Source: Candidatus Brocadia sp. (lineage in GTDB: Bacteria > Planctomycetota > Brocadiia > Brocadiales > Brocadiaceae). From it: a stretch of 64,000 nt of DNA. The notes under the pieces were generated by a model. That model saw only the letters and a list, made by a program, of their open reading frames with translations. It did not search any database and was not told where the DNA came from. Position numbers and translations under genes: made by a program. The stretch spans positions 62,001-126,000 of the forward strand of contig SOEU01000003.1 in assembly GCA_021646415.1 (NCBI GenBank), written 5' to 3'. Within the stretch, counting starts at the first letter, position 1; each line of letters opens with the position of its first letter. Positions 43,397-58,085 of this stretch are shown one piece after another.

Positions 43397-44743
43397 CTAC
43401 TTCATTTCTTTCGATTCGATCAATACACCTTCGGACCAATTGATGATAGCCCCGATGTCAACGGGTTCTCCACCTATAGTCATCTTGTGTTGTCGTCCTT
43501 CCAACAACTTTTTCTCTTCGCCCTCTAATAATAATGTAGCATCACCCTTTACAGCCGTCACGATGGTAACAAAATCCCTTGCCTGGATATTCAAAGTACC
43601 TTTATTTGTTCTAATCCGTCCATTCGGGGTGTCAATTTCTAATGGCACTTCTGATTCCTTTACAGAGATGAGGACCTGACCGGATTTCAGCTGTATCTTC
43701 AACGGATCGATAAAATGCACTTCGGTATTTGAGTCCATACCCAGATCGATACCTTTCTTTGTGGATAAGGCAGTCCTTCCTTCGCTGCCGGTTTTTAGGG
43801 TAATACCACTCCGGAAAATGGTATGGTTTGATACTTTATTCCATTCCTTACTTTCCGGATACAGAAATTGAATTTCGCCATGCGTTTGTACCAGATTGAT
43901 TTCTCCGCCCTTATGCGTCAAATAAAAAAATACTACAACTACGAGTAACAATCCACACCCAACAATCGAACCTAAATAGATAAATCCCTTCCGTGTGGGT
44001 CTGGCAATAAGTATTCCCAATTCATAGAGAACGATCATGGGAACAGCGGTCATACTTTGGGTAAAAGGGTCTGGCGGCGTGACAATGGCGGCAATAATAA
44101 ATATTACCAGAATGGCATACTTTCGCCACTTTATAAACTTATCCGGCGTAATAAATCCGATCTTGGAAAGGAGCAGCATAACGAGCGGTAACTGGAATAC
44201 CAATCCCAACGCCACGGTCAGCAGGAAAACAAATGAGACGTAATCCTTCATGGTGATGATGGGTTGAATACCCGGACCAAGGATACCGATCAGGAATTGC
44301 AGACCAAAAGGGATGAGCAAAAAATACCCGAAGAGCCCCCCAACCACAAATGCCACATACGAGACAGGGAGAAATAAAAGCACATACCTCTGCTCTTTTT
44401 TATAGAGTCCTACGCTCACAAATTTCCATATCTGGTAAATAACAAAAGGATAGGCCAGGAAAACTGATGTTATAAAACACAGTTTCATGTAGGCATAGAA
44501 ACCCTCCTGGTAACTCAGTACCTGCAACTCAGTTGACAAACCGACCTTTTCCATGGCAAACTTATGGGGTCTTTTCGCCATATCCAGTATCTGTACCTTG
44601 AAAAACCAGCACAAGATGAAACAAAGAACAATGGCGATAATGGAATAGACAACCCGCCGCCGCAACTCTTCCAGATGTGCACCTAATGACATCCGGATAT
44701 TTTCAATTTCACTTGTTACTTCGTCTGTCTCTGTCTTTTCCAC
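43397..44743 (-). CDS. tatC: TatC translocase subunit with C-terminal FecR-like domain
   Basis: A 448-residue membrane protein. Residues about 18-265 are TatC: the start SLGAHLEELRRRVVYSI is the conserved signal-binding region, followed by six membrane segments, including AYPFVIYQIWKFVSVGL and VTPPDPFTQSMTAVPMIVLYELGI. TatC proteins usually stop at about 250 residues. Here an extra membrane segment (about 255-275) leads to a FecR-like domain (about 280-400: IFRSGITLKTGSEGRTALST; VPLEIDTPNGRIRTNKGTLNIQ). With the expected topology that domain would lie outside the cytoplasm. TatC forms the Tat receptor for folded proteins; the added domain could sense a ligand or envelope state. The integrated element sits 95 bp upstream. 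Confidence 0.9.
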   Translation of the reverse strand: MEKTETDEVTSEIENIRMSLGAHLEELRRRVVYSIIAIVLCFILCWFFKVQILDMAKRPHKFAMEKVGLSTELQVLSYQEGFYAYMKLCFITSVFLAYPFVIYQIWKFVSVGLYKKEQRYVLLFLPVSYVAFVVGGLFGYFLLIPFGLQFLIGILGPGIQPIITMKDYVSFVFLLTVALGLVFQLPLVMLLLSKIGFITPDKFIKWRKYAILVIFIIAAIVTPPDPFTQSMTAVPMIVLYELGILIARPTRKGFIYLGSIVGCGLLLVVVVFFYLTHKGGEINLVQTHGEIQFLYPESKEWNKVSNHTIFRSGITLKTGSEGRTALSTKKGIDLGMDSNTEVHFIDPLKIQLKSGQVLISVKESEVPLEIDTPNGRIRTNKGTLNIQARDFVTIVTAVKGDATLLLEGEEKKLLEGRQHKMTIGGEPVDIGAIINWSEGVLIESKEMK

Positions 44744-44837: not shown

Positions 44838-44858
44838 AATTACAAGAAACAATTCATC
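44838..44858 (+). repeat. Left attachment repeat (attL)
   Basis: These 21 bp (ATTACAAGAAACAATTCATC preceded by A) recur exactly at 55672-55692 in the same orientation. Sequence outside the pair is unrelated. It lies 104 bp from the integrase stop and 95 bp from the tatC start. Confidence 0.85.
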
Positions 44859-44937
44859 CATTTTGCCCATATACGCCTTGCAACCCTTAAATATACTGGC
44901 AATACAAGGGTATTGAGTAACACAGTAAAAACCAATT

Positions 44938-44957
44938 GCCGTACTCCTGACCGTACC
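44938..44957 (+). repeat. CGTAC-rich arm site, left end
   Basis: GCCGTACTCCTGACCGTACC, about 80 bp inside attL. A copy with 18 of 20 matching bases is 125 bp inside attR at 55528-55547. Each contains two CCGTAC units 11 bp apart. Likely binding site for integrase or excisionase. Confidence 0.6.
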
Positions 44958-44961
44958 TTTT

Positions 44962-46116
44962 TCATTGTGCTATAGCCAAGACATGGTCTGTCAATGCCTG
45001 GATAGCCTGTTGCTTGTTGCTTAGGCCTGTATGTGAATACTTCTGCAACATCGACAAGCTTGAATGTCCCGTCATTCCTTGCACTACTACTGCACCAATA
45101 CCAAGTTCGCCTTGAAGTAGACTGGCAAAGGTGTGTCTTAGGTTATGGAAGGTGAAGCCTTGAATGCCTAAGCTTTTAAACAGCTTACTGAAATGGTCAC
45201 TATGTTCAGCGGTAACAGCATGGGTTAACGTCCTGCACTCAAATACCTTGTCATTATCCGAATTGTTTTCCTTCCATTGCAACAACTCCCCTGACAGATA
45301 TTCCGACATGGGTATTGACACAAGTTTGCCGGTCTTATGACTGGAAGTTATCAACCCTTTGCCAAAGTCTATATCCTGCCATGACAAGCTTAATACCCCG
45401 CCCAGGCGTAACCCGGTAAGGAGTCCCACCAGCACCATGAGACGATCTTTACCTTGCAGTTTGTCAAGCAATAAGGCTATTTCCCCGGAAGTTAACACCC
45501 GGTCTTTAGTCTGTGTCACCTTCAACCGTTTAATACCCTGGCATGGGTTCTGATCAACAATGCCAGCGCTTATGGCAGTATTGAAAACATGTCCTAAAAT
45601 AGCAATATCCACATTGATACTACTGTCTTTAACGCCGCCCCTTTCTTTGCGGTTAATCCTGTATTTCTCGATAATAAACGGTGTAATCTTATCCAGTGGG
45701 TAATCCCCTAAGAATTTCACCAAAGCATTTACTGCCCTTTGCTTCATTGCCAGTGTGTTGCCCTTTGCCTCTTTGTATAACTCCAGGTATGTTTTGGAAT
45801 ATACCTTTAGACTGGGAATCTGTTTCTTTCTTGGTAATTGCAATTTGCCCCTCTCCCTATCACCGATAAGCAGCATCAGCCTTTTCATGGCATCTTTCCG
45901 ACTTCTAATGTCCCGAAAGCTAACTGACACCCACCGTTTTCTGTCATCAAACAGTTCTATTAACCACCGCCCGCACTTCGGAGTATCTCCGTTTTTCTTT
46001 GCGGGTAAATCTGTTGGGCAATAATCTCCACGCTTGCCGTCACAGGAAATTTCTTTACCCCCGGCATCCTGGATTTTACACTTATCCGGATAATACTTTT
46101 TCCACCTTACCGCCAT
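44962..46116 (-). CDS. Tyrosine-type site-specific integrase
   Basis: A 384-residue recombinase from an ATG at 46116 (MAVRWKKYY), chosen because AAGGACGG lies about 10 bp upstream; a start at 46155 would add 13 residues. The N-terminal region has a Cys-containing arm-binding segment, then a core-binding domain (about 110-195) and a catalytic domain with the Arg in TGLRLGG, Lys in SSHKTGK, the HxxR box HNLRHTFASLL, a His in GHSSLSMLQKYSH, and the nucleophile Tyr in that last motif. It sits at the left end of the element, directly inside the attachment repeat, and should drive integration and, with the small DNA-binding protein at 48150, excision. Confidence 0.93.
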   Translation of the reverse strand: MAVRWKKYYPDKCKIQDAGGKEISCDGKRGDYCPTDLPAKKNGDTPKCGRWLIELFDDRKRWVSVSFRDIRSRKDAMKRLMLLIGDRERGKLQLPRKKQIPSLKVYSKTYLELYKEAKGNTLAMKQRAVNALVKFLGDYPLDKITPFIIEKYRINRKERGGVKDSSINVDIAILGHVFNTAISAGIVDQNPCQGIKRLKVTQTKDRVLTSGEIALLLDKLQGKDRLMVLVGLLTGLRLGGVLSLSWQDIDFGKGLITSSHKTGKLVSIPMSEYLSGELLQWKENNSDNDKVFECRTLTHAVTAEHSDHFSKLFKSLGIQGFTFHNLRHTFASLLQGELGIGAVVVQGMTGHSSLSMLQKYSHTGLSNKQQAIQALTDHVLAIAQ

Positions 46117-46251
46117 TTCCGCCGTCCTTTCAGAAATAACAAAGGCAACAAACACCCTGTAGGACGGTACAGGATGCCGTTGCCTTTGATTGCCTGAGTC
46201 TCCCCAAGCAAATATTATTTTGCGTTCCGTCCAACGCCTCTTAAAGAATCT

Positions 46252-46473
46252 TTATTGTGTTGCGCCTTCGGATGCCATTATGCTAGCTACTTTCTCTGCT
46301 ACTTCAGAAACATTCATGTCTTTTATTGCGTCTTCCATTGCGGTTCGGGTTATAATGATACTACCACCACACCTATTCTTACATTTACGCACAAGAATCG
46401 CATCAGCCAATACCGAATAATCCAAATCTCCATAGCACACACTACACTTTACCGCATTACTTGCCTCTAGCAT
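46252..46473 (-). CDS. Small protein with Cys-pair zinc-ribbon-like pattern
   Basis: A 73-residue protein with CSVC near the start and CKNRC about 20 residues later, a spacing that could bind one zinc ion. The C-terminal half is a helix (AMEDAIKDMNVSEVAEKVASIMA). Its ATG overlaps the upstream gene's stop by 7 bp, so the two are coupled. I do not recognise the family. Zinc-ribbon proteins of this size in phage-like elements often regulate transcription, but that is only inference. Confidence 0.6.
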   Translation of the reverse strand: MLEASNAVKCSVCYGDLDYSVLADAILVRKCKNRCGGSIIITRTAMEDAIKDMNVSEVAEKVASIMASEGATQ

Positions 46474-46931
46474 ACAGCACCATCCCTTCTTGGCGCCGTA
46501 GCGAATCTTGGGACCTGATCACTATTCACAAACTCCTTGTCGTCGATAATGTCGCCGATCTCATTAACCTTCCGTAGTGCGTCAGTAAGAAGCCATTCAC
46601 AACCATCCGAGTATTGGTCAATCCTTAACAAGAGAAGGATAAGCTCCCTAAGACATCCAATCCTTGCCCTTACCTCGTCTACTCCATCTCTCACCACACA
46701 ACACCCCTTTCTAAACAAAGAAGGCAACAAATTAACATGTGACAGCATGCTAACTGTTGCCTCCCGTGTGCCCGATTTCTCAGGCATATACCTGTAGGCG
46801 TCTGTCACCGCTACTTTCAACGGCACGTACGGTATCGTACCTTCGGAATCGTTGTCAAGTACTTTTTTTGTTTTCACTGTTTCTTTTTGCTCGTCTGTGG
46901 TATAATATTTTCGCGTATGAATGAGAAACAA
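46467..46931 (-). CDS. Hypothetical protein, start uncertain
   Basis: A 154-residue frame with no recognised motif. Its N-terminal 48 codons overlap a likely promoter region and the divergent gene at 46917, so translation may start at the ATG at 46787 (MPEKSGTREAT), giving 106 residues. The rest is mainly helical (VDEVRARIGCLRELILLLLRIDQYSDGCEWLLTDALRKVNEIGDIIDD). Overlaps the next gene by 7 bp. It is the first gene of a small leftward run that leads towards the integrase. Confidence 0.5.
   Translation of the reverse strand: MFLIHTRKYYTTDEQKETVKTKKVLDNDSEGTIPYVPLKVAVTDAYRYMPEKSGTREATVSMLSHVNLLPSLFRKGCCVVRDGVDEVRARIGCLRELILLLLRIDQYSDGCEWLLTDALRKVNEIGDIIDDKEFVNSDQVPRFATAPRRDGAVC
46827..46858 (-). 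promoter_or_regulatory. Possible leftward promoter with palindromic operator
   Basis: On the minus strand TTGACA (46858-46853) is an exact -35 box; 17-18 bp later a weak -10 overlaps the perfect palindrome GTACG-GTAT-CGTAC (46827-46840). The palindrome shares the CGTAC core with the arm sites near both attachment repeats. This would suit a repressor or excisionase controlling the leftward genes. Confidence 0.4.
46901..46906 (+). promoter_or_regulatory. -10 box for the small rightward genes
   Basis: An exact TATAAT lies 10 bp before the ATG at 46917. The -35 region is poor. With so short a distance the transcript would be almost leaderless. Confidence 0.4.
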
Positions 46932-47099
46932 AGAGAAGATGTTGTTAAATTTCTGTACGACTTAGCAAAGCTTACTTACACAGGTCTTATTATTGGTGGT
47001 ATAATTTCACCAAAAGGACTTCTCTGGTTTCATATACTCTTTGGTGTCTGTGCATCGATAATCTTTTTTGTTGTAGCTTACAAACTTAGAAAGGAATAA
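46917..47099 (+). CDS. Small two-helix membrane protein
   Basis: The frame from ATG 46917 gives 60 residues, MNEKQREDVVKFLYDLAKL followed by two hydrophobic segments (YTGLIIGGIISP; LLWFHILFGVCASIIFFVVAY). A start at 46887 would place the first codons before the TATAAT box, so the internal ATG is chosen. A similar small-membrane-protein family (DUF6722-like) is my best guess. It is on the opposite strand to most of the element's genes, and a second tiny membrane protein follows after 4 bp. Confidence 0.55.
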   Translation: MNEKQREDVVKFLYDLAKLTYTGLIIGGIISPKGLLWFHILFGVCASIIFFVVAYKLRKE

Positions 47100-47103
47100 C
47101 GCT

Positions 47104-47205
47104 ATGGATTCACTTAGCTTACTCTTCATACTGGCAATCGTAATAACGCTTATCGGCTTTGGCATTTATTATTTCCAGGAACGAAAGAAAAAGCATACTC
47201 ATTGA
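47104..47205 (+). CDS. Very small single-pass membrane protein
   Basis: A 33-residue frame, MDSLSLLFILAIVITLIGFG and then YYFQERKKKHTH: one membrane helix followed by a basic tail. AAGGA lies 7 bp before the ATG, and the gene follows the preceding membrane protein after 4 bp. The 100 bp after it hold no further gene. Function unknown; tiny membrane proteins of phages and satellites include holin-like and exclusion proteins, but nothing here proves that. Confidence 0.5.
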   Translation: MDSLSLLFILAIVITLIGFGIYYFQERKKKHTH

Positions 47206-47305
47206 TGCTACCATTGCGCTGATGTCCGCATCATCCAGCATACTGCCCTAATTGCCTCGAAGCCTATTGACCAGATAATGAAATCCGTATATGGGAACAA
47301 CCTCA

Positions 47306-48139
47306 TTAGTTTGCCTCCGAAAAGTTTAGCGTTCTTATGGGTTCGAAATTCGTCCAAAGACATTCGACTGTCTTTGGCTTCGATTCACCTGTTGATTTGT
47401 AGCTACTCTTGAAGCTTGAATACTCATACCGATGCCAGCCCTTATACAATTCATCGTATAAGCCATTCTGGTAGTGTGAGACCATCACTTTGGCTTTTAC
47501 CCCGCTCAAGAGGTTTGCAAGGGTACGGTGGTCTTCCTGGCTAAAGGAATCCTTGCCGTAGTAGTGTTCTGCATTCAAATAGGGAGGATCGCAATAAAAC
47601 AAGGTGGTCTCTGAATCATACCGCTTGATACATTCTGCATAGTCTAAGGACTCGATACAAACATTTCTAAGACGTTCCGCAACCATGCCGAAGGTTTCAA
47701 TTGTATTCCTAAAGCTTATTACTGGATTCCTTCCAGTGGTAGAAGGCATAGCAAACCCACCCCTTAACTGATCGCCACCAAAGCACGTTCGATTAAGATA
47801 AAACCACCACGATGCTTTTTCGGTCTCATCTTCAGGCAAATGCCCTTCCTTCCAGCCTGTTCTTATCTCCCGCCAAAGGCTCCTGGAATATGGCATATGG
47901 TCAAGTATGTCGATAAGACGCTCCCTTGTCTCTGCATTCCGAATAACCTTAAAGAAGCCTACCAAGTGGTTATCAATATCGTTTATAGCCTCAACCCTAC
48001 TTGGTGGCTTGTTAAAGAGTAGATGCCCTGCACCACAAAAGGGTTCAATATAGCAAACATGCTCCGGTATTATCTTGGATAGCCAACCAGCCAGGTATCT
48101 CTTGCCACCCATTCTATTAACACAACTCTTGACTTGCAT
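47306..48139 (-). CDS. D12-class DNA adenine methylase (Dam-like)
   Basis: A 277-residue N6-adenine methyltransferase. The N-terminal SAM-binding region reads NRMGGKRYLAGWLSKIIPEH...YIEPFCGAGHLLFNK; the catalytic motif is TLFYCDPPYLNAEHY (DPPY). Dam-like enzymes of phages methylate a short site to protect from host nucleases or to time replication or packaging. It sits in the leftward run of the element with no cognate endonuclease nearby, so it is an orphan methylase. It lies 10 bp downstream of the AlpA-like gene and should be cotranscribed. Confidence 0.92.
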   Translation of the reverse strand: MQVKSCVNRMGGKRYLAGWLSKIIPEHVCYIEPFCGAGHLLFNKPPSRVEAINDIDNHLVGFFKVIRNAETRERLIDILDHMPYSRSLWREIRTGWKEGHLPEDETEKASWWFYLNRTCFGGDQLRGGFAMPSTTGRNPVISFRNTIETFGMVAERLRNVCIESLDYAECIKRYDSETTLFYCDPPYLNAEHYYGKDSFSQEDHRTLANLLSGVKAKVMVSHYQNGLYDELYKGWHRYEYSSFKSSYKSTGESKPKTVECLWTNFEPIRTLNFSEAN

Positions 48140-48149
48140 TCATACCCCC

Positions 48150-48383
48150 TTAAATACTTTCAACGCTATAAGGTGTTTGCGCTCCAACGGTATGCTCCTG
48201 GACATAATCCCGCAACATCTCCGTCGAAAAACGAGTGAGTCTCCCAATCTTGATATGTGGGATCGTCTTCCTCATGACCATTGCATAGAGGCTTGATTTT
48301 TTGATTCCTAAGAACTCTGCTGCCTTATCCATATCCAACAATCTGCCGCCTAACTCGTCCACCAATTTTAACTTGTCACTCAC
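48150..48383 (-). CDS. AlpA/excisionase-like helix-turn-helix protein
   Basis: A 77-residue protein with one MerR-type winged-helix motif (LLDMDKAAEFLGIKKSSLYAMVMRKTIPHIKIGRLTRFSTEMLRDYV), the pattern of AlpA-like regulators and excisionases. In satellites and prophages such proteins bind near att sites to direct excision, or activate the integrase gene. A good ribosome site (GGAGG) precedes the ATG. The CGTAC palindrome and arm sites are candidate binding sites. Confidence 0.8.
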   Translation of the reverse strand: MSDKLKLVDELGGRLLDMDKAAEFLGIKKSSLYAMVMRKTIPHIKIGRLTRFSTEMLRDYVQEHTVGAQTPYSVESI

Positions 48384-48441
48384 GTCTTTACCTCCTACGG
48401 TCTAATGATATATAATGCTATAGTATCCTTTTTTAATTTGC

Positions 48442-48912
48442 TTAGCTTAAGTAAGCCTTGATGCGCTCCCAATAATCCCGCTGCTTTTGTAAAAATTGAT
48501 ACAGAAGGCCTTCTACTGTCAAAGCCGTAATCTCCCTATCACATGCAAAAAGAACATGCACACCATACTTTGCACTCAGTGCTTGCAGTGACCCGACAAC
48601 CGATGCTACCGATATATCATTCCTCCAAGCTCCCCTGTAGATGTCTGCAAGTGACGACTCAATAATAATAGCTGCATACTCGTAGGCTCGCATCCTTTGC
48701 ACCTCTGCCATGAACCGCTTCCGTTCACCACTCAATGATCCCAGGAGGTCAGGAAGGGATTTGCGCTCAATCGTTATCCTGTCCGCAAAGTGTTCCAGGC
48801 TGTAATCGCCTGTCTGAAGGCTAGCTTCCTTTGTCCTTGCATGGTGAAATGTCAGAGGTTTTTTCTCTCTGGTATCCACTAAGATCGTCATATCTGACTT
48901 CTTTATCCCCAT
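48442..48912 (-). CDS. ERCC4-domain (XPF/Mus81-type) nuclease
   Basis: A 156-residue protein consisting mainly of one ERCC4 nuclease domain: VDTREKKPLTF near the start, GDYSLE, and the catalytic IERKSLPDLLGSL (ERKxxxD). These enzymes cut branched or flap DNA. Small single-domain versions occur in phages, where they act in recombination or resolve replication intermediates. Here it lies in the leftward replication run of the element; its ATG overlaps the upstream stop by 10 bp. The typical helix-hairpin-helix DNA-binding tail is absent. Confidence 0.85.
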   Translation of the reverse strand: MGIKKSDMTILVDTREKKPLTFHHARTKEASLQTGDYSLEHFADRITIERKSLPDLLGSLSGERKRFMAEVQRMRAYEYAAIIIESSLADIYRGAWRNDISVASVVGSLQALSAKYGVHVLFACDREITALTVEGLLYQFLQKQRDYWERIKAYLS

Positions 48913-49157
48913 TGCTCTTTACTCCATTTCTCTTGACGATACCTCATAGTCTCGCTATCTGAATAGAAAGACCACTCCGACATATCCCCGATTCCGACCA
49001 ACCTCATTTCGTCTGTACTGCCGTCAGACCAATCAAAGAACTCTATAAGGTATCGATCGTCTGACTCCTGGGAAATGATTTGCCCTTGTCGACACAGCTT
49101 GTCATCCTCGAATATGTGAAAATACTTTCCTACCAATAATGATTTACTATTCTCCAT
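48903..49157 (-). CDS. Hypothetical small protein
   Basis: An 84-residue protein from an ATG at 49157 (MENSKSLLVGKYFHIF), preceded by GGCGGGGAG. An upstream start at 49244 would overlap the neighbouring gene. It looks like a small beta-rich fold (LCRQGQIISQESDDRYLIEFFDWSDGSTDEMRLVG), SH3- or Tudor-like, which is a guess. Acidic. Coupled to the ERCC4 nuclease by a 10-bp overlap, so it may work with it. Confidence 0.6.
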   Translation of the reverse strand: MENSKSLLVGKYFHIFEDDKLCRQGQIISQESDDRYLIEFFDWSDGSTDEMRLVGIGDMSEWSFYSDSETMRYRQEKWSKEQWG

Positions 49158-49170
49158 ACTCCCCGCCTTC

Positions 49171-49443
49171 CTATCTCCTAAACACACGAACTTTGTCACC
49201 ACGACTATTGTAAACATCCACGATTGCTCGACCATAATTAGCAATCACAAAACCCTTTGCCTGATCACCGTCTAAAACAAATACCCGAACCTTATCAGCC
49301 TTACCACCATCTAAAGAAAAAGTGGCCTCGTGCCAAATGTATTCCGGCTTCCATCTGCGTTCAAGCAATGCCTTGCCCTTCCGAATTAAATCGTCCATAG
49401 CTACCACCCGCATCCCTGCGCCCAACTCGTTCGCATCTCCCAT
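49171..49443 (-). CDS. Hypothetical small protein
   Basis: A 90-residue protein with no recognised motif. It has a helical N-terminus (MDDLIRKGKALLERRW) and a beta-rich C-terminus (KVRVFVLDGDQAKGFVIANYGRAIVDVYN). Placed between the primase operon and the ERCC4 nuclease in the same direction; a GGGGGAGAAAG-like sequence precedes the first ATG. The internal ATG at 49413 is an alternative start. Confidence 0.55.
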   Translation of the reverse strand: MGDANELGAGMRVVAMDDLIRKGKALLERRWKPEYIWHEATFSLDGGKADKVRVFVLDGDQAKGFVIANYGRAIVDVYNSRGDKVRVFRR

Positions 49444-49543
49444 CTTTCTCCCCCTTCCTTTAAGATAATCGTTTCTCCGATATTCCCGCCAACCATATGC
49501 TAACTCTTTTGTTTAAGCTAGTTTATGACTATTGCACCCCCTC

Positions 49544-49921
49544 TTAGTTAGGAAAATCCCTTCTGTATTTATGAATCAAATCACATCTGCCAAGCTCTTT
49601 TAGGGTATCACATACCGATTGCCCACCATTTTTCCAGTAGTGGTATCTCCTATCGCTGTTGAAGGGGATAACCAAAACCCCCGAATCAGCGACATACGGT
49701 TTAACCCGGTCTGGTTCACAGTTTTCACCCATGATTGCCATACGCTCAGATAACTCATAACCTACTGTTTGTGGTTCCTCTGGCATCGGCTCAAGCTTCC
49801 CTTGCTGGACAAACATTTGTGCCGCCTTTTCGGGTAACTTCACAATGCTTCCTGCATGAAATATTTTGACAACCCCCTGCACTTTGACCTTGAGGTCTTG
49901 AATAACCTTATACACTGGCAA
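49544..49921 (-). CDS. Hypothetical protein coupled to the primase
   Basis: A 125-residue protein starting 14 bp inside the primase-helicase gene's end, so it is translationally coupled. The first 50 residues look like a small beta domain (YKVIQDLKVKVQGVVKIFHAGSIVKLPEKAAQMFVQQGKLEPM), similar to short phage head or tail accessory proteins but not diagnostic. The C-terminus (YHYWKNGGQSVCDTLKELGRCDLIHKY) is helical. Function unknown. Confidence 0.6.
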   Translation of the reverse strand: MPVYKVIQDLKVKVQGVVKIFHAGSIVKLPEKAAQMFVQQGKLEPMPEEPQTVGYELSERMAIMGENCEPDRVKPYVADSGVLVIPFNSDRRYHYWKNGGQSVCDTLKELGRCDLIHKYRRDFPN

Positions 49922-52652
49922 CCTCCTCTATGAATTCTAACTCCGGGATTGATTCTGTCTCAGTGTTTAATTTTTCAACACTTTTTATGGGTTCAGAATT
50001 TTTTTCTTCAGAAGTATGTATTTTCAATGGCATGTATGGCATGGCTTCTGTAACTACTGCACCTGTAGGCACTTCTGACATGCCATAGGATTTTTGCCCT
50101 ATGGCATCCCTATGGCAGGGTATGGCATATGGTATTAGCTCCGAAGGTGTTATTGTCTGCGATACTGCCATAGGCTGCGATAGGGGATTTTCCCTATGGC
50201 AGCCTGGATTCCCTTGATTTTGCTGGCCTCCTGCTATAGAGCCATAGAAACCACTGGTTTGCGCCATATATTTATTTTTTGTATTTTTTACATGGTTGAT
50301 GTCAAAAAGATATGGCGTCTTATTGTTTGATCGTGGTAACTTTTGGGTATATAGCTTAAGCAATCCCAATGTTTTGCCTGTCCATATCTGCTTCGCTTTT
50401 ATACTCATACCCTCATCGCGGCACAGCCTCGCCGCAATCTCGTCAGACGTAAAAATGTGCTTGCCTGACTCTGATATCATCTCCAACAAGGTATCAATCA
50501 ACTCTAACTCGTAGTCAGAAAGATTGGTTTGAGTCTCTTGCATCGAATCGAGAAACGCCTGCTTAATATCCTGCATTTCTTTCTGAGGCACTTCTTCAAG
50601 CTTCAGTATTGTTTCAATAGGTCTCCATAACTCACGGACTCTATGACTGACACCTTCGCCGGTGGTTTGATATATTTCCCTGACGTCTTTCCATCTGGTA
50701 AGAAGTAACTTGTATAACTCGCCTCTGAGGGTTTTCCATATAGGTAAATGTGCATCGGGTTCAGGGTATTCCCTTGAAGCCCTTACCATTGTTAGCATGA
50801 TACATCTGTCTTTTATGTCGGTGTCAATCTCTTTTATAGATGCGAATGCCTTTGGCGAATATGTCTCGAACTCTAGGACACGCCTTACGCCGTTTACGAT
50901 TTGGACTACACGCCGTTTACCACCATCAACGGTATAGGAGTCTGCAATCAAACCGTTTATTTCCAGGTTCTTTGGGTCACTAAGTGATTCAGCTTGATCG
51001 ATTAACAATGTCCCGCGGACGCCGTCAACGGTATCGCCTAAACTTGCCACAGTAATCCCTTTAGTTTTGATTGCATTAAAAGAAAGCCTCTCTACTAAAA
51101 CCAAAGTCCTCGACTTCCCGCAGCCCTTCTTTCCATAGACGAACAAAAACGGCATAGCATGAAAACACCTATGAAAGTAAGTAGCTATAATCCACGCCGA
51201 CAATAACCCATAATGCGATTCCTCTTGAAACTCAGTATAACTCTTGAGGACTTGCTTTACTTTAAGGTATATCCCCCTCGGTGTTTCTTGCTTTTTTATG
51301 AATGCAAGAACGTCTGATTTGCACCAGTTGTCGTTTACGGGTTCAAGCATTCTCCCTCTAACGTCAAATATTACCTTGCATCCGTCTTGACGATAGAATA
51401 TAGCATCCTCACACAAATCGTATCCACTCCCTGTAAACAAAATAAACATATTCCTGTCCTTCGGAGTATTACCCTCAATGACAGTTTCCCGAAACCCCAA
51501 ACTCATGAAATCGTCATTAACTTCATAGCTTGGATGCACCACAACAATATTCTCAGAAGCCGTTTCATTGACTCCCACTTTTGCCGAAAGGCTTTTCATA
51601 TCCCCTTTTAAAGCCCCTTTAGCTATCCCTGTTCTTTTAGAAAGGTCTTGGATATACCTTAACCGCTCAGACTCAAATCCAACTCTCGCAATCTGTTTTA
51701 GAATTTCCTTTATTTCGTCAAAAGGTGTTTGTGTGTTTACATTCTCAAGCATCCCTTGTATTGTCTTTGGAGACAAATCAATCCCCGCTTCTTTTGCCCG
51801 GTGAACAATCGTTGCAAAGCTAAATGCGCCTTTATTCGTCCGAATGCAGTTATTGTATTTCACGTCACAGTCTGATTCATCGTATTTTGACGAAGCCCTA
51901 CTCAACTCATGAAAGTATTCACGTCCAGCCTCACCAAAGGTATTAGCTATGGCGAATCCTACGTCCAGCCAACTGCTGTAATCGTCAATGCCAGGCAAAG
52001 GTTTACCGCTAGCGATGATTGCTTGCATGATTCGATGGTCATCGTCACTTGCATCAGAAATGCAGGAAGGCTGTGCTTGCTCTGGTATAGTCTCCGGAAC
52101 AATAAATGCCTCTGAGTTCTCATTCATATATATTTGCGGGTCATGCGAAACAAACCTCAGCCGGGAAACATCCTTGCATCCTGAGTCCACAACCAGTCCG
52201 TAGACTTCCTTGTAATATCGCTCCAATGCCTGAAAGCTTTCTGCATGACGACCTTTGTCGATCTTCACACCCACTGCAAGCCCTTTGCCTCTGCATGAAG
52301 TGAACAGGAAGGCAGTATGTTTATCCCCGACCAGCCTTTGCCGTATCCTGTCTCCCTGTTCAGACAATGCAGGATTATCTTTACCATCAATGTCCAAGAG
52401 GATAAAACCGCTATGCGCAACCAACCCATCGACAGACCTCTTTGTGAAGAATCCTGAAGCTGTAAAGCAGGGGAGTTCACTCTTGCACCTTTTTCGCTCC
52501 GACTCGTCTTGCGTGTTTCGCAGCTTCTCAATCGCAGGAATCCACTTTCCTCCGTTCCCTGTTCTAACCCCCTCTAAAATCCTTGCAAGCGTAACTAGTT
52601 GCCCAGCAACATCTTGCACGTTTCTATAATAACTTACCTTTGTGTTTTGCAT
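49908..52652 (-). CDS. VirE_N-type primase fused to a P-loop helicase
   Basis: A 914-residue replication protein. Residues about 60-190 match the BT4734/VirE N-terminal domain, a primase-like fold (SGFILLDIDGKDN; TAFLFTSCRGKGLAVGVKI; RLRFVSHDPQIYMN). Residues about 220-290 look like a PriCT-type domain (SSWLDVGFAIANTFGEAGREYFHELS). Residues about 480-650 form a P-loop ATPase with Walker A GKKGCGKSRT and Walker B GTLLIDQAES. The C-terminal part has a winged-helix-like segment. This combination starts replication of phages, satellites and plasmids. It probably acts on the AT-rich repeat region at 53830-55004. Confidence 0.83.
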   Translation of the reverse strand: MQNTKVSYYRNVQDVAGQLVTLARILEGVRTGNGGKWIPAIEKLRNTQDESERKRCKSELPCFTASGFFTKRSVDGLVAHSGFILLDIDGKDNPALSEQGDRIRQRLVGDKHTAFLFTSCRGKGLAVGVKIDKGRHAESFQALERYYKEVYGLVVDSGCKDVSRLRFVSHDPQIYMNENSEAFIVPETIPEQAQPSCISDASDDDHRIMQAIIASGKPLPGIDDYSSWLDVGFAIANTFGEAGREYFHELSRASSKYDESDCDVKYNNCIRTNKGAFSFATIVHRAKEAGIDLSPKTIQGMLENVNTQTPFDEIKEILKQIARVGFESERLRYIQDLSKRTGIAKGALKGDMKSLSAKVGVNETASENIVVVHPSYEVNDDFMSLGFRETVIEGNTPKDRNMFILFTGSGYDLCEDAIFYRQDGCKVIFDVRGRMLEPVNDNWCKSDVLAFIKKQETPRGIYLKVKQVLKSYTEFQEESHYGLLSAWIIATYFHRCFHAMPFLFVYGKKGCGKSRTLVLVERLSFNAIKTKGITVASLGDTVDGVRGTLLIDQAESLSDPKNLEINGLIADSYTVDGGKRRVVQIVNGVRRVLEFETYSPKAFASIKEIDTDIKDRCIMLTMVRASREYPEPDAHLPIWKTLRGELYKLLLTRWKDVREIYQTTGEGVSHRVRELWRPIETILKLEEVPQKEMQDIKQAFLDSMQETQTNLSDYELELIDTLLEMISESGKHIFTSDEIAARLCRDEGMSIKAKQIWTGKTLGLLKLYTQKLPRSNNKTPYLFDINHVKNTKNKYMAQTSGFYGSIAGGQQNQGNPGCHRENPLSQPMAVSQTITPSELIPYAIPCHRDAIGQKSYGMSEVPTGAVVTEAMPYMPLKIHTSEEKNSEPIKSVEKLNTETESIPELEFIEEVASV

Positions 52653-52698
52653 TAAAGCACCTTTTCTTTTCTGGTCTAATGTTCCAAAACCTAGCGAT

Positions 52699-53061
52699 TT
52701 ATATCCTTTTCTGAGAGGCTAATTGCCCACCTGACAAGAGCGCCCGAACAGAGTTCCTGAATGACTTCGACCCGATGCTTTGGGAAAGCACCCACCTGAC
52801 GTATCGGGGATCACTCTGCAATATGTCTCTGACGAGACGACCTTTGTATTTCCCGAACCAGAATGTTGGTTCCTCATGCCGAAGGAATTTGATGGGCGCC
52901 TTGCACGCTGAACAGATAGTCTTATAATGGGATGCGCCGTCTTTCAGTGGTATGACTTTGATATGAAGTTTTGACGTCTCGTGAATAACCCCGCATCTCT
53001 TACAAGTAATTGTTGCGGGTGTTTTTTTTGTGTTGCGTTCTAATACGCTCTTTGTTATCAT
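52699..53061 (-). CDS. Zinc-ribbon protein with ExoX-like C-terminal segment
   Basis: A 120-residue protein from the ATG at 53061 (AGGAG lies 6 bp upstream); an earlier start at 53130 lacks a ribosome site. Two Cys pairs (CKRC, CSAC) about 35 residues apart suggest a zinc ribbon. The following FWFGKYKGRLVRDILQSDPRYVRWVLSQ resembles the C-terminal module of exodeoxyribonuclease X and related DNA-processing proteins. The nuclease domain itself is absent. Possibly a DNA-binding accessory for replication; located 46 bp upstream of the primase gene. Confidence 0.6.
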   Translation of the reverse strand: MITKSVLERNTKKTPATITCKRCGVIHETSKLHIKVIPLKDGASHYKTICSACKAPIKFLRHEEPTFWFGKYKGRLVRDILQSDPRYVRWVLSQSIGSKSFRNSVRALLSGGQLASQKRI

Positions 53062-53151
53062 GTAGTCTCCTAGTGTTAGACAAAATGGCCGTGTACCCCT
53101 GCCAGGATATACGGCCTGTTTTATTTGCATAAGTTATGACAAAACAATGAG

Positions 53152-53829
53152 TTAAGTCATACTCACAGCCCCCTGCAACGCATCCTTTTCAAGTAAATCC
53201 AATGCTTCTACCGTGCGCATCTCATCGAGGGTGAGGTTGTGCTCTTTTAGCGAAAGCACTGTTTTAACCTCTCCTAAGAGAATGGCAGTCGCCCTGGCTT
53301 TTAATTCAGGTGAAAAGCTCCACAATTGGTTTGCATATCGCCTGGCTTCATCTGGACTAACGCCATCCGATAAATGCCAGTAGTAATCAAGGGTATAGCC
53401 AGACTTCCAAAGGGAACGCATCTGGCTGAAGTTACGGCTATCAATTACCTGTTGTAGAGTCTTATTAAATTCCACCTTAATCGCCTCTCGCAATCCGTGA
53501 CTGTAGTTGCCTGCATCTGAAAAACAAGAGTAATCGTCAAAAAGAATCCAAGTTACCCGTATAATGGCATCTGCAAATTCCTCCTGGAGACTCTCAACCA
53601 CCCTCTTGAAGTCATATTCCGATTTCCACTTTCTGACAAGACCGTAACCAACCCCCAAGTGAACGGCTATGTCCTTCTGTTTCGCCCTTGTTAAGCCAAC
53701 TAAAAGGGCTGTATGATATTTGACTTTCGGGAAGCCAATCTTGTTTCCCCTCGGTGTCCCCAGTCGTTGCGGTTCTATGTGTTTACTCAATTTATCCGAT
53801 ATAAAAGATTTCAGATAAGTGTCTGACAT
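53152..53829 (-). CDS. Hypothetical DNA-binding protein (helix-turn-helix)
   Basis: A 225-residue protein. A helix-turn-helix at about residues 48-72 (AKQKDIAVHLGVGYGLVRKWKSEYDF) resembles those of phage regulators and terminase small subunits. The rest is helical without known motif. GGAGG lies 7 bp before the ATG. It is the first gene of the leftward replication run, next to the AT-rich repeat region, so an origin-binding or regulatory role is plausible. Confidence 0.6.
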   Translation of the reverse strand: MSDTYLKSFISDKLSKHIEPQRLGTPRGNKIGFPKVKYHTALLVGLTRAKQKDIAVHLGVGYGLVRKWKSEYDFKRVVESLQEEFADAIIRVTWILFDDYSCFSDAGNYSHGLREAIKVEFNKTLQQVIDSRNFSQMRSLWKSGYTLDYYWHLSDGVSPDEARRYANQLWSFSPELKARATAILLGEVKTVLSLKEHNLTLDEMRTVEALDLLEKDALQGAVSMT

Positions 53830-54169
53830 ACCAGTTACCTCCTATGAAAAAAGTTTATCACTAACGATAAAAGTACAACGCTACCTATATAAGTAAAAAA
53901 TTTTGATGGGTCAACACCCACCAGAATACTAATCCCTCTATATATATTAAACGTATGTTTTCCGAATTTTCGGAGTAAAAAATAAAATATATTTAATGAT
54001 TGGTATAAATATTGCTACGTACATCTATACAAATACTCCCCCACCACAAATTATAATATCATGTATACAATTCGTTTGTATGCAGACAAAATAAAAAAAT
54101 TTAGTTAATTGTGAAAAATAGACATCTATATGACTATCTATAGATAGACCCCCATCAGGGGGCAACTAT

Positions 54170-54276
54170 TGATATGTTATGTATTGCGCTCTATAAATTA
54201 TAGATATTAGTTACTATATGCTATATATAGTATGTAATACACAGTATATTAAGTTTGATATGTTATATATTGCGCT
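54170..54276 (+). repeat. Iteron-like direct repeat, set A
   Basis: TGATATGTTATGTATTGCGC at 54170 and TGATATGTTATATATTGCGC at 54256 differ at one base; with the following T each unit is 21 bp, and starts are 86 bp apart. Candidate binding sites for a replication initiator. Confidence 0.65.
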
Positions 54277-54577
54277 TGTGCTATATTTAACATATTATAT
54301 TAGTTGTTATTATCGTTTGACAGCGTGGCTTATATATGCTTACATGTGTGATTGTTAAGCATTATTGCAAGAGCAGTTATGGTGTGTGAGGACACACATC
54401 TATTGTGTATTTAGTTGTGAGCTACTAGCAGGTTATGCGCTAGTAGAATAGGAATCTCTATACTTATAGAACTTTTATCACACTTTTTACAGAGATTTAA
54501 ACAAAAAAAATAAAATAAGTTGTATGTGCTATATAATACATATGCTTACAACACGCCCAAATTCAAATCTAAACTGT

Positions 54578-54655
54578 AATCATTACAGATTAGGCTGCCA
54601 TTATGGCAGTTCTACTAGTTGTAATTATTGCTAAATAACAATCATTACAGATTAG
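54578..54655 (+). repeat. Iteron-like direct repeat, set B, with palindrome
   Basis: AATCATTACAGATTAG occurs exactly at 54578-54593 and 54640-54655. The first copy is part of the palindrome CTGTAAT-C-ATTACAG (54574-54588); the second lacks the left arm. Between them is a small hairpin (TGCCATTATGGCA). Confidence 0.65.
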
Positions 54656-55004
54656 CAAATCAATATATAGCACACTGTGCGCTGTTGGGGGTGGTTTCAA
54701 AAAAATTTGTAGCGACCTAGAAACAGGTCTGATTTATCCCCGAAGCCCGGAGGCACATATAGGGGGTGGGGGTCTTGCCCTGCCCCCTGTGAATCGGTGG
54801 TAGTGGGGAAGGTTTCCTATACTTCCGGAAAACACTCCCCCCATTCAACATGCAAGAAATACGCTAAGTGATTTGTAATTCCACACTTAAAACCACATTA
54901 CAACATAATTGATATTATCGGACGTACTATCCTAAGTATCAATTATGCTGACTCTTACAAACTCTCCCCACTTTAGACAGATAACAAACCCTGAATTTTT
55001 ACAC

Positions 55005-55487
55005 CTAAGAGGATTGATTTTCCTCTGGTTTTTGCTCCGTAAATTCAGCACTTATGACTTCCTCTGTAGAATCTTCCCCACTTCCCAAGTCTCGGTATGC
55101 GCTCAGATCGACTAGCTCTTGCATATTGCTTGCGCCGACGTTCAGATTAATGTTGCGATTAATGACTGGTGTTTCTCTCTTTTGTTGTTCTAAGTATATG
55201 TCATGAGACTTCTTAAGACAAATTTCTTCCTTTGCCGTTAAGTCTTGTTTGCCTTTGTCCTTGAGTGTTTTCTTTGCAATCTTTAAAGTTAGGTATGCTA
55301 CCTCTCCACCAAGTTCTAACATCTTGGGGTCAACCAAGTTACGGCTCCTAATTCTTTTTTCCAGCTGATATGCCGATGAACTGTCCGGCTTTGCTTTATA
55401 CCCTGCTAAATCAAAAGCAGTCTTCACATCTTTACCCGACTCTCGCAACGCCTTATATATCTCTTGTTTTTTATTCAGTTTTCTCAT
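55005..55487 (-). CDS. Terminase small subunit-like protein
   Basis: A 160-residue protein. The N-terminal segment LNKKQEIYKALRESGKDVKTAFDLAGYK has the spacing of the helix-turn-helix of phage terminase small subunits (KQ...A...AGY), and the C-terminal part is an acidic, Glu/Ser-rich tail as in many of them. Such proteins pick the genome to be packaged. No large subunit is nearby. In phage satellites a lone small terminase can redirect a helper's packaging. The match is by pattern only, so confidence is moderate. Confidence 0.45.
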   Translation of the reverse strand: MRKLNKKQEIYKALRESGKDVKTAFDLAGYKAKPDSSSAYQLEKRIRSRNLVDPKMLELGGEVAYLTLKIAKKTLKDKGKQDLTAKEEICLKKSHDIYLEQQKRETPVINRNINLNVGASNMQELVDLSAYRDLGSGEDSTEEVISAEFTEQKPEENQSS

Positions 55488-55527
55488 TGGTTACCTCTCC
55501 CTCTCTATTGGAAACAACAAAAAATTA

Positions 55528-55547
55528 GCCGTACTTTTGACCGTACC
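55528..55547 (+). repeat. CGTAC-rich arm site, right end
   Basis: GCCGTACTTTTGACCGTACC, 18 of 20 bases the same as the left arm site at 44938-44957 and in the same orientation, 125 bp inside attR. The remaining sequence from 55548 to 55847 holds no clear gene apart from a 29-codon frame at about 55704-55790 without support. Confidence 0.6.
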
Positions 55548-55671
55548 TAATCGCAAAAACACATCAAAACTCTGCTACTTAAAGCTACGATGATTTACCT
55601 CCAATCCCTTGAAAATACTGAGGAAATAGAAGTATAGACAAATACATCAAAATAGGCGAAAAAGCCTCCAG

Positions 55672-55692
55672 AATTACAAGAAACAATTCATC
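55672..55692 (+). repeat. Right attachment repeat (attR)
   Basis: Exact 21-bp copy of attL. Joining the outer flanks gives a plausible undisturbed site upstream of tatC with no gene interrupted. Confidence 0.85.
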
Positions 55693-55847: not shown

Positions 55848-58085
55848 TTAAAACTGGTAACTTAATCCAACAAAAAATGTCCGTCCAGGTCTAGGGAGAT
55901 CGTCTGGTATGGAAATAGGGCCGGGATCACTGTAATCCTTGTCAAGAATATTGAATACCGTACCTTGTATCTCCATAGTCTTAAAGAATTCCTTTGCAAT
56001 AATCGAGAGATTAAGCAGTGCATAAGCCGGCAAGTCGTCCCTGGGGTCATTATCTTCCCGCGAACGAGTCCCACTAATAAAGGTGCTCAGATTGGTATTG
56101 ATATATTTCGGATAGTGTACGTTCACACCGAAGTTGCCCTTATGTTGTGCAACAAATGGCAGCTCATTTCCACGATTATCTTCTGGATTTTGAAAGGTAT
56201 AGTTCATAAAGACGTAATTATCCTTAACAATATCAACCCTTGTTTCCATTTCGATACCCTGGACATGAGCATCCCCAAAATTTTCAAAATGTGAAGTGCC
56301 CTGGGCGGTTGGCAGTGCACGCAGGACAATAAGGTCCTCGATGTCATTATAGAAATAATTAATACTGCTGGTAACGTGTTTGTTAAACTGGTAACTTAAT
56401 CCAACTTCGTACGTTCTAATCGTTTCAGGGTCTAAATCCTCGTTTCCCTCAATAGCAGGCTGATTGATGGTAAACATCTCTTGAAAATTAGGTGGACGAA
56501 AGGCCTCTCCATAAAGCAGTTTTAGTGATGCATTCTTCATAAATGCCCATGTTAAGCCTGATCGTGGACTGGTAGCGCCTCCAAAATCGCTGTATTGATC
56601 ATGCCTTGCCCCAAGGGTGAGGTGTAAGGTATCAGTAATGTCCCAGGTATCCTGTAAATAAACTGACCATATCCTTCGTGTGGCTTCTTCCAAAAAGGGA
56701 TAAGTATCCGAAAAATCCTGGATAGAGCCCAGAGGCTCCAGTGTTCTGGGATGAAAGTTGCTCAAAAAATGGACATTGGTTTGATTGATCAAACGGTATT
56801 CCAGTCCCAGGGTAATGATATTTCCATCAAACAATTGATAATCAAAGGGAATCTCTGTACCGACAATCTTCTCAATCACCTTGCCGTTACCAATAAGCCC
56901 GTCGGGATAACGAGTATCGGGGAATCCGTCACCATTTCTATCCAGAGTTCCACCCTCCGGTAAGGATTCAATGAAAATATTATCATCAAATTGGTCATAA
57001 TAGACCCTGGGTCTTATGGTAAATCTTTCATCAAAGGTTTTCTTGTACCCAGCATCAACAAAGACATAGTTGGTTTCCACATCAGACTCGTCATTCAAAG
57101 CAGATTGAGGACCAATAAAAGGTTCCTTATTTTTATTAATGTATAACCCCTCAACATAGAAATCATTGTATGCAACTCTTAGGTTCAGGCCAAATTCCTG
57201 CCTCCCATCGTGCACCTTTCCCGGGGCTTGGGAGGCTGCCGGGAAATTGAATGGAGGAGGTAAAGAAGAACTGATGTTATCATTTTTTGTTTGTCTATCC
57301 CTTTCGACAATACCATCAAAACCATTGGTCTGCCTGTAATAGGCCATCCCGGAGATGCCGACCTTGCCGCATGTCTTACCAAACACAACATTTTCCTCAT
57401 AAGTATCGAAACTCCCATAACCACTACTCAGCTTTACGCCATCAATATCTTTTGCATCTATAGTAATAATATTTACAACCGCCAAAAACGCATTTTCACC
57501 ATATACAGCAGAACCCGGACCCCGGATGATTTCTATCTTTTTTATATTTTCTAAGGGGAAATCGTCAAATAAAGTAAAGGCCCCCCCGCTGAAAGGATTA
57601 TTTACGAGATGTCCATTGAGCATCACCCGTATTTTCTCTGAACCTATTAGTCCCCGTACGTTAGGGACTACAGCCCCAAAGGAATCATCCTTTAAAATTT
57701 CAAACCCTGGTACCGTCCTTAAAATTTCCGCAAAGGTGCGATACCCTAAATTCTTAATATCCCCGGCTGTAATCACGGTGACAATGCTGGGAGCCTTGCC
57801 GACGGGGCTTTCGTGTCTTGTAGCTATTGCCACTTCCTCCCCAAATCCAAACCAAATGGCTTCGGTTACGAGTTCTTCTGCAACGGCAGCCTCCACATCA
57901 CGTGTATGTTCCTCTTTTTTACTGGACGTGGTCCCGGTTGGCCGGGTTGTTTCCGCTATCAAAGTTGAGGACGTGTCTGTGTCTTCGGCGAGAATTTCGA
58001 ATGAAATAAAAGGAATAATGCTTAGGAGCAAAATACCTGGTGACAAGAAAGACGGAAACAAACCATTTGTTGTCCACATGGTCAT
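55848..58085 (-). CDS. TonB-dependent outer-membrane receptor
   Basis: A 745-residue receptor. Residues about 10-35 form a signal peptide; about 85-215 the plug domain (APSIVTVITAGDIKNLGYRTFAEILRTVPGFEI; ENIKKIEIIRGPGSAVYGENAFLAVVNIIT); the rest is a 22-strand barrel ending in FFVGLSYQF, with Phe as last residue. It takes up a scarce ligand such as a metal chelate or cofactor across the outer membrane using TonB energy; the ligand is unknown. It lies downstream of the oxidase-cytochrome/encapsulin operon on the same strand but 487 bp away, so it probably has its own promoter. Confidence 0.92.
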   Translation of the reverse strand: MTMWTTNGLFPSFLSPGILLLSIIPFISFEILAEDTDTSSTLIAETTRPTGTTSSKKEEHTRDVEAAVAEELVTEAIWFGFGEEVAIATRHESPVGKAPSIVTVITAGDIKNLGYRTFAEILRTVPGFEILKDDSFGAVVPNVRGLIGSEKIRVMLNGHLVNNPFSGGAFTLFDDFPLENIKKIEIIRGPGSAVYGENAFLAVVNIITIDAKDIDGVKLSSGYGSFDTYEENVVFGKTCGKVGISGMAYYRQTNGFDGIVERDRQTKNDNISSSLPPPFNFPAASQAPGKVHDGRQEFGLNLRVAYNDFYVEGLYINKNKEPFIGPQSALNDESDVETNYVFVDAGYKKTFDERFTIRPRVYYDQFDDNIFIESLPEGGTLDRNGDGFPDTRYPDGLIGNGKVIEKIVGTEIPFDYQLFDGNIITLGLEYRLINQTNVHFLSNFHPRTLEPLGSIQDFSDTYPFLEEATRRIWSVYLQDTWDITDTLHLTLGARHDQYSDFGGATSPRSGLTWAFMKNASLKLLYGEAFRPPNFQEMFTINQPAIEGNEDLDPETIRTYEVGLSYQFNKHVTSSINYFYNDIEDLIVLRALPTAQGTSHFENFGDAHVQGIEMETRVDIVKDNYVFMNYTFQNPEDNRGNELPFVAQHKGNFGVNVHYPKYINTNLSTFISGTRSREDNDPRDDLPAYALLNLSIIAKEFFKTMEIQGTVFNILDKDYSDPGPISIPDDLPRPGRTFFVGLSYQF

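Follow-up and report, generated by a model that had tools for sequence, protein, structure and literature searches.

A candidate phage satellite at the tatC promoter of an anammox planctomycete and its relatives in Brocadiaceae

A 64,000-nucleotide stretch of a Candidatus Brocadia sp. genome (assembly GCA_021646415.1, contig SOEU01000003.1, positions 62,001–126,000; here called the window) contains an integrated element of 10,834 bp at window positions 44838–55692. We read this element as an intact phage satellite resembling the phage-inducible chromosomal islands (PICIs) and belonging to a family in Brocadiaceae, a reading to which we give a probability of about three in four and which does not make it a proven PICI. 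Integration, regulatory and replication modules are present, and there are no recognisable virion or conjugation genes. The satellite reading rests on a large family of sister elements, on small terminase subunits (TerS) of the lambda Nu1 type in sisters that have no large terminase (TerL), on homologues of phage DNA-ejection proteins in the sister L015 and on an empty attachment site in a congener. The family very probably copies itself and travels in a phage shell without having shell genes of its own. An initial annotation had proposed a phage satellite in an anammox planctomycete; the satellite-like nature of the element is well supported through its relatives, whereas there is no proof of the terminase call on which that annotation partly relied, and dependence on a helper, like packaging, is what we infer.

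No open-access literature linking phage satellites with anammox or planctomycetes was found, and the family is apparently undescribed so far. Anammox bacteria grow slowly and are responsible for much of the nitrogen lost from the environment and removed from wastewater. A satellite family in many of their genomes would imply that phages prey on them repeatedly and move genes among them, and the att sites and junctions described below are concrete handles for finding the family in reactor metagenomes.

Boundaries, insertion site and gene content

The direct repeats of 21 bp that had been noted at both ends are an exact pair, for which the chance expectation around an integrase is ~ 3e-6. Further copies elsewhere in the genome had been named as a reason to abandon the satellite; the core occurs just these two times in the 3.8-Mb assembly, even with two mismatches permitted. 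An empty attB upstream of tatC, suggested as a check, was found in the congener G005 (locus L035), where the left flank (95.0%), a single core and the right flank (87.8%) are all contiguous. Because this uninterrupted site keeps one core between the same flanks, the element is 10,834 bp long, and its site-specific integration into the tatC promoter of this Brocadia-genus chromosome cost the host no sequence. The predicted promoter (TTGTAA-N17-TATTAT, minus strand) is conserved among congeners, and the tatC-side copy of the core preserves its −35-like hexamer whole. A search of the att region with Rfam brought up no RNA gene and there is no tRNA gene within the window, the insertion site being a promoter. 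PICIs are described as using a unique att site that prophages never occupy (PMC6092414); the tatC-promoter core has no further copy in the genome and its site is vacant in G005, too few anammox prophages being known to judge exclusivity.

Paired GTACY boxes lie just inside both ends of the element and recur at similar distances from both ends across the family, in most sisters 75–154 bp inside the left end; integrase arm sites are the most likely reading of them. The R, H-x-x-R, H and Y residues of the integrase are invariant (alignment A4), and its conserved start is probably M14 (about 46116).

Comparison of the element's open reading frames (ORFs) with Pfam and PHROGs (Table 1) bore out much of the initial annotation. 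The integrase, AlpA-like protein, primase-helicase, Dam methylase and ERCC4 nuclease were each recognised by Pfam (tyrosine integrase, HTH_17, BT4734/PriCT_2, MethyltransfD12 and ERCC4, respectively), and the Walker A motif of the primase-helicase, GKKGCGKS, was found by eye. Neither Pfam nor PHROGs identified any capsid, portal, tail, other structural, lytic or large-terminase family in these ORFs, and no relaxase, mobilisation or conjugation family of Pfam occurs in any of them; the reported absences therefore stand, and no missed capsid or tail gene came to light. An integrase, a replication module and a putative master regulator occur in the conserved order described for PICIs (PMC6092414), an order that is kept in the sisters. 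Two of the PICI criteria of that work are thus seen here, and we do not claim PICI membership.

Two observations concern the flanks. TatC (43397–44743) ends in a FecR-like domain (PF04773, 3.6e-6). Such a fusion is unusual, and congeners match the protein over its full length. Just beyond the element, near the 3′ end of a TonB-dependent receptor gene, there is another exact 21-bp repeat (55851–55871 and 56385–56405).

Sister elements in Brocadiaceae and their links with phages

The search for the element at other sites in related genomes, also suggested at the outset, gave at least 17 related elements in Brocadiaceae including this one, 8.7–12.0 kb in length and located at different chromosomal sites. 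Their sizes derive from terminal repeats resembling att cores, which were located for 16 sisters; L031 and L100 do not count towards that range, as the repeat found there is an arm-type box and their bounds are approximate. G005 alone has at least four elements. The closest sister, L015, is one of these and has eleven proteins in common with the element, and the DUF6722 protein has a 98% identical copy on another, L098; such identity across elements of two species looks like a sign of recent exchange. Protein and DNA searches showed the integrase–AlpA–Dam core recurring in many relatives, and integrases more than 50% identical came solely from Brocadia, Kuenenia, Loosdrechtia and other Planctomycetota records. 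A first contig scan with the primase as query found no relative. Replication modules have been swapped among the sisters, with BT4734 primase, D5/PrimPol, CHC2 primase and DnaB all represented.

Full-length TerS of the lambda Nu1 type (phrog_57) is encoded, without a large terminase, in four sisters: L096 (1.1e-30), L099 (7.5e-28), L101 (4.7e-32) and L106 (7.1e-27). The profile of these proteins matches TerS domains of solved cos-type terminases at 4e-7 and RppC, a packaging protein of PICIs, at 0.003. Elsewhere in the order, the same TerS family stands directly upstream of a GpA TerL in four genomes (G025, G053, G055 and G036), and it is present with GpA TerL absent in the host genome (G000), G005, G001, G024 and G030. 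At L015:3428–5286 there are two neighbouring homologues of phage DNA-ejection proteins (phrog_4287, 2.6e-10 and 0.013), an unusual cargo for a satellite; in phage MW202462 the homologue comes after a phage-stabilisation gene, as in P22-like operons, and P22-type portals are present in Brocadiaceae. The ERCC4 nuclease has a homologue in a lambda-like prophage of G025 (8.6e-30), to whose integrase that of the element is distantly related. In that prophage the large genes past the GpA TerL look, from their order and from inspection of the sequences, like those for portal, capsid and tape measure. The sister TerS, these prophage links and the ejection homologues together favour phage-mediated transfer over life as a plasmid.

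The G025 prophage (L225–L226, G025:C25:30001–70000) is apparently complete, with Nu1 TerS, GpA TerL and ERCC4, and is a plausible type of helper. The host genome has other satellite-like loci, L095 (G000:C12:6001–26000; 10,063 bp, 34-bp repeats) and L220 (G000:C5:152001–172000), the latter with a Nu1-type TerS (phrog_57, 2.3e-29). A second, smaller recurrent cassette (L016, L018–L024 and L030) consists of a 363-aa protein, an AlpA-like protein, a helicase that resembles the C-terminal region of the window's primase (~ 53% identity), a 167–172-aa protein and a different integrase. An integration hotspot lies beside speE in four species (L027, L070, L096 and L103), two of these loci sharing the near-identical att core AACACTATCCYGGTATTTC.

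Table 1 Features of the element in window coordinates, with the principal matches
Feature	Position	Strand	Evidence or remark
att core, tatC side	44838–44858	.	21 bp; overlaps −35-like TTGTAA of tatC promoter
Putative integrase arm-type site, left	44929–44958	+	GTACTCCTGACCGTACC; 80% identical to 55519–55548
Tyrosine recombinase (integrase), 397 aa	44962–46155	-	Pfam PF00589 1.2e-22; PHROG integrase 1.7e-59
73-aa small protein with Cys pairs	46252–46473	-	37–39% identity in L015 and L017; no family above cut-off
154-aa protein	46467–46931	-	ORF; partial homologue in L017
DUF6722 small membrane protein	46917–47099	+	Pfam PF20482 1.2e-13; sole plus-strand gene of the element
Orphan Dam-type N6-adenine methyltransferase	47306–48139	-	PF02086 (MethyltransfD12) 2e-28; phrog_56 1.1e-73
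AlpA/excisionase-like HTH_17 putative regulator	48150–48383	-	PF12728 2.9e-11; phrog_66 excisionase/regulator 4.8e-5
ERCC4-type nuclease	48442–48912	-	PF02732 2.4e-12; phrog_3490 4.6e-19
113-aa protein	48903–49244	-	Conserved in L015 and L017
90-aa protein	49171–49443	-	Homologues on other satellite-like loci, L221 and L222
125-aa protein of conserved core	49544–49921	-	Homologues 51–77% identical in many sisters
Primase-helicase, 914 aa	49908–52652	-	BT4734_N, PriCT_2 and Walker A/B ATPase; PF08800 1.7e-17; PF08707 6.5e-14
143-aa ExoX-C-like protein with Cys pairs	52699–53130	-	PF20600 2.1e-8
225-aa helix-turn-helix (HTH) protein, candidate small terminase	53152–53829	-	phrog_1889 TerS 0.005 (weak)
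AT-rich noncoding repeat region, candidate replication origin	53830–55004	.	33.5% GC, 1.17 kb; between 225-aa and 160-aa genes
dif-like XerCD site	54898–54925	-	ACGTCCGATAA-TATCAA-TTATGTTGTAA; arms match dif-like site of nearly every genome in the order
160-aa HTH and helical-hairpin protein, candidate small terminase or packaging adaptor	55005–55487	-	Distal end of the element
Putative integrase arm-type site, right	55519–55548	+	GTACTTTTGACCGTACC; counterpart of left arm site
att core, distal side	55672–55692	.	21 bp

Candidate origin, packaging proteins and alternative readings

The noncoding region between the genes for the 225-aa and 160-aa proteins has 8 repeated 12-mer pairs vs 0.22 in shuffles, with 0 of 300 shuffles reaching 8, and its repeat motif is partly common to the matching gap of L015. 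Composition and repeats make it a candidate origin of replication. The dif-like site, ACGTCCGATAA-TATCAA-TTATGTTG, has a counterpart at the matching place in L015, ACGTCTGATAA-TGTTGG-TTATGTTG. An order-wide site, ACGTCTGATAA-TRTATA-TTATGTTA, usually gives one strong match per genome; the sites of the element and of L015 retain its arms but have other central hexamers. Its consensus across the order, ACGTCTGATAATRTATATTATGTTA, with one site in nearly every genome (G000:C11:81459 in the host), is on sequence grounds very probably the chromosomal dif of anammox bacteria and their relatives. Since XerCD recombination requires matching central regions, the altered central hexamer could resolve multimers of the element while sparing the chromosomal dif. 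Other dif-like sites with host-like arms and differing central hexamers are at G000:C7:26122, G005:C1:95702 and G005:C1:309827; most of these sites, that of the element included, adjoin the 160-aa gene or its remnants. A CRISPR spacer match suspected at G000:C7 proved to be such a dif-like site, with no array.

Several results weigh against the satellite reading. The 160-aa protein, which the initial annotation had called terminase-small-subunit-like, has no direct match in Pfam or PHROGs. Some of its homologues match TerS weakly (phrog_1595, 1.7e-4; phrog_641, 0.0048), so that the terminase homology by which the call was to be judged is neither absent nor clear. Searches with its structural model in Foldseek and VIA-align returned generic helical hairpins and two small terminases at E 2.8–4.5, which is uninformative, and the protein matches no TerS among the anammox prophages sampled. 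The other TerS candidate of the element, the 225-aa protein, is likewise weak; the L015 homologue matches phrog_7344 TerS at 4.6e-5, a likeness of the TerS-type HTH only, and the AlphaFold2 model of the 225-aa protein itself is of low confidence. Of the packaging module expected of a phage satellite (TerS, pac/cos or capsid redirection, with neither TerL nor capsid), sisters have phrog_57 TerS and this element has only weakly TerS-like HTH proteins. Viral contigs of IMG/VR gave no relative with six queries (the 160-aa protein, Dam, primase, integrase, the 125-aa protein and a sister ejection protein), a weak negative as the search reaches close relatives only; there is therefore no direct sign of packaging. 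The host genome has no P22-type portal and no GpA or Terminase_6N large terminase, and therefore no resident helper of those types. Finally, a dif-like site is something a plasmid would likewise carry.

Even if the element is a satellite, the 160-aa protein may have no part in a terminase and may instead be a regulator, or bind DNA as an accessory factor at the neighbouring dif-like site, which we consider a serious possibility at clearly less than even odds. Its gene ends ~ 80 bp from the dif-like site and is near such a site in L015 too, a broken copy lies beside that at G005:309827, and there is a very weak match near G000:C7:26122. However, several of its homologues match TerS profiles and none matches a recombination factor, its best PDB profile match is a small terminase (that of Pam5, although at an E of just 0.11), and in the sister L026 this end is occupied by another TerS-like protein. 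The AlphaFold2 model, of moderate confidence, has HTH-like N-terminal helices followed by a helical hairpin, and alignment of the 160-aa profile with P22-type prophage TerS in hhalign was not significant. No tabulated element has both Nu1 TerS and the 160-aa protein, the numbers being too small for testing.

A different reading takes the element for an integrative, self-replicating plasmid or a mobilisable element without transfer genes of its own, integrated by its tyrosine recombinase and copied by its primase-helicase, its dimers resolved at the dif-like site, spreading by conjugation in trans or by natural transformation and not in virions. The resolution site and the lack of viral-contig matches would suit it, as would the toxin-antitoxin genes of some sisters and the N-terminus of the primase, which has relatives on both Bacteroidota plasmids and phages. 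We think it unlikely, however: relaxase families are missing from the element's ORFs and from the 25 commonest Pfam families of 128 sister proteins, and a plasmid has no need of the full-length TerS of four sisters or the ejection homologues of one. An inert prophage, shrunken through loss of its virion genes, is very improbable, for although ERCC4, a distantly related integrase and (via sisters) TerS are held in common with the G025 prophage and truly decayed copies are known elsewhere (L063, L070/L071, L065 and L272), this element retains intact core genes along with an att core and an arm site at each end, and the form is moving as such, since at least 17 elements in many species keep its small size and layout at different sites while their modules are exchanged, and elements of two species share one gene at 98% identity.

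Proposed cycle and comparison with known systems

For a satellite, the following cycle can be proposed. On infection by a helper phage, or its induction, the AlpA-like protein would turn the element on and the integrase would cut out a circle of 10,834 bp, which the primase-helicase would copy starting at the repeat-rich region; host XerCD may resolve multimers at the dif-like site. A TerS or packaging adaptor (the 225-aa and/or the 160-aa HTH protein here, the Nu1 type in sisters) would then steer the helper's large terminase so that its capsids are filled with satellite DNA. Protection or processing of the DNA, or interference with the helper, may be the task of the Dam methylase and the ERCC4 nuclease.

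More broadly, we suggest tentatively, as somewhat short of an even chance, that the anammox satellites are a large radiation of their own apart from the PICI and P4 lineages, swapping replication and packaging modules (Nu1 TerS, other TerS, ejection proteins) and parasitising lambda-like and P22-like anammox phages, some of them having a private dif that resolves multimers without recombination at the chromosomal one. Satellites with ejection proteins or a private dif would, if true, widen the known range of satellite borrowing.

P4-type satellites are ~ 11 kb in size, have an AlpA/Vis-like protein, a primase-helicase and an integrase, and need the virion of a helper (PMC6092414). The element resembles them in its size and in these three proteins, but Pfam and PHROGs name no P4 capsid-size or transactivation gene in it, and its site is a promoter in a window without a tRNA gene. 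With the Gram-negative PICIs of the EcCICFT073 type it has in common a terminal integrase, an AlpA-like regulator and a primase module followed by a candidate origin, as well as att repeats, the absence of structural and lytic genes, and TerS in some members of the family (PMC6092414). In contrast to PICIs, whose typical size is stated to be 12–15 kb (PMC6092414), the element is 10.8 kb and its family 8.7–12.0 kb; all genes except one are co-directional, Dam and ERCC4 belong to the core, the replication modules of the family span several unrelated primase families, and the host is an anammox planctomycete. The minimal satellites of Vibrionaceae, the phage-inducible chromosomal minimalist islands (PICMI), are similarly small, with few genes and none for capsid remodelling, but their host clade differs and the likeness is one of description (PMC10803314). 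The G025 lambda-like prophage (contig C25) has ERCC4 and a distantly related integrase in common with the element and Nu1-type TerS in common with sister satellites, whereas its GpA TerL and its portal-, capsid- and tape-measure-like genes have no equivalent in the satellites. The dif-like site with host-like arms recalls the plasmid resolution sites cer and psi and the integrative mobile elements exploiting Xer (IMEX), which use XerCD; unlike these, the element uses a tyrosine recombinase of its own to integrate at tatC and not at dif, and its central hexamer differs from that of the host dif.

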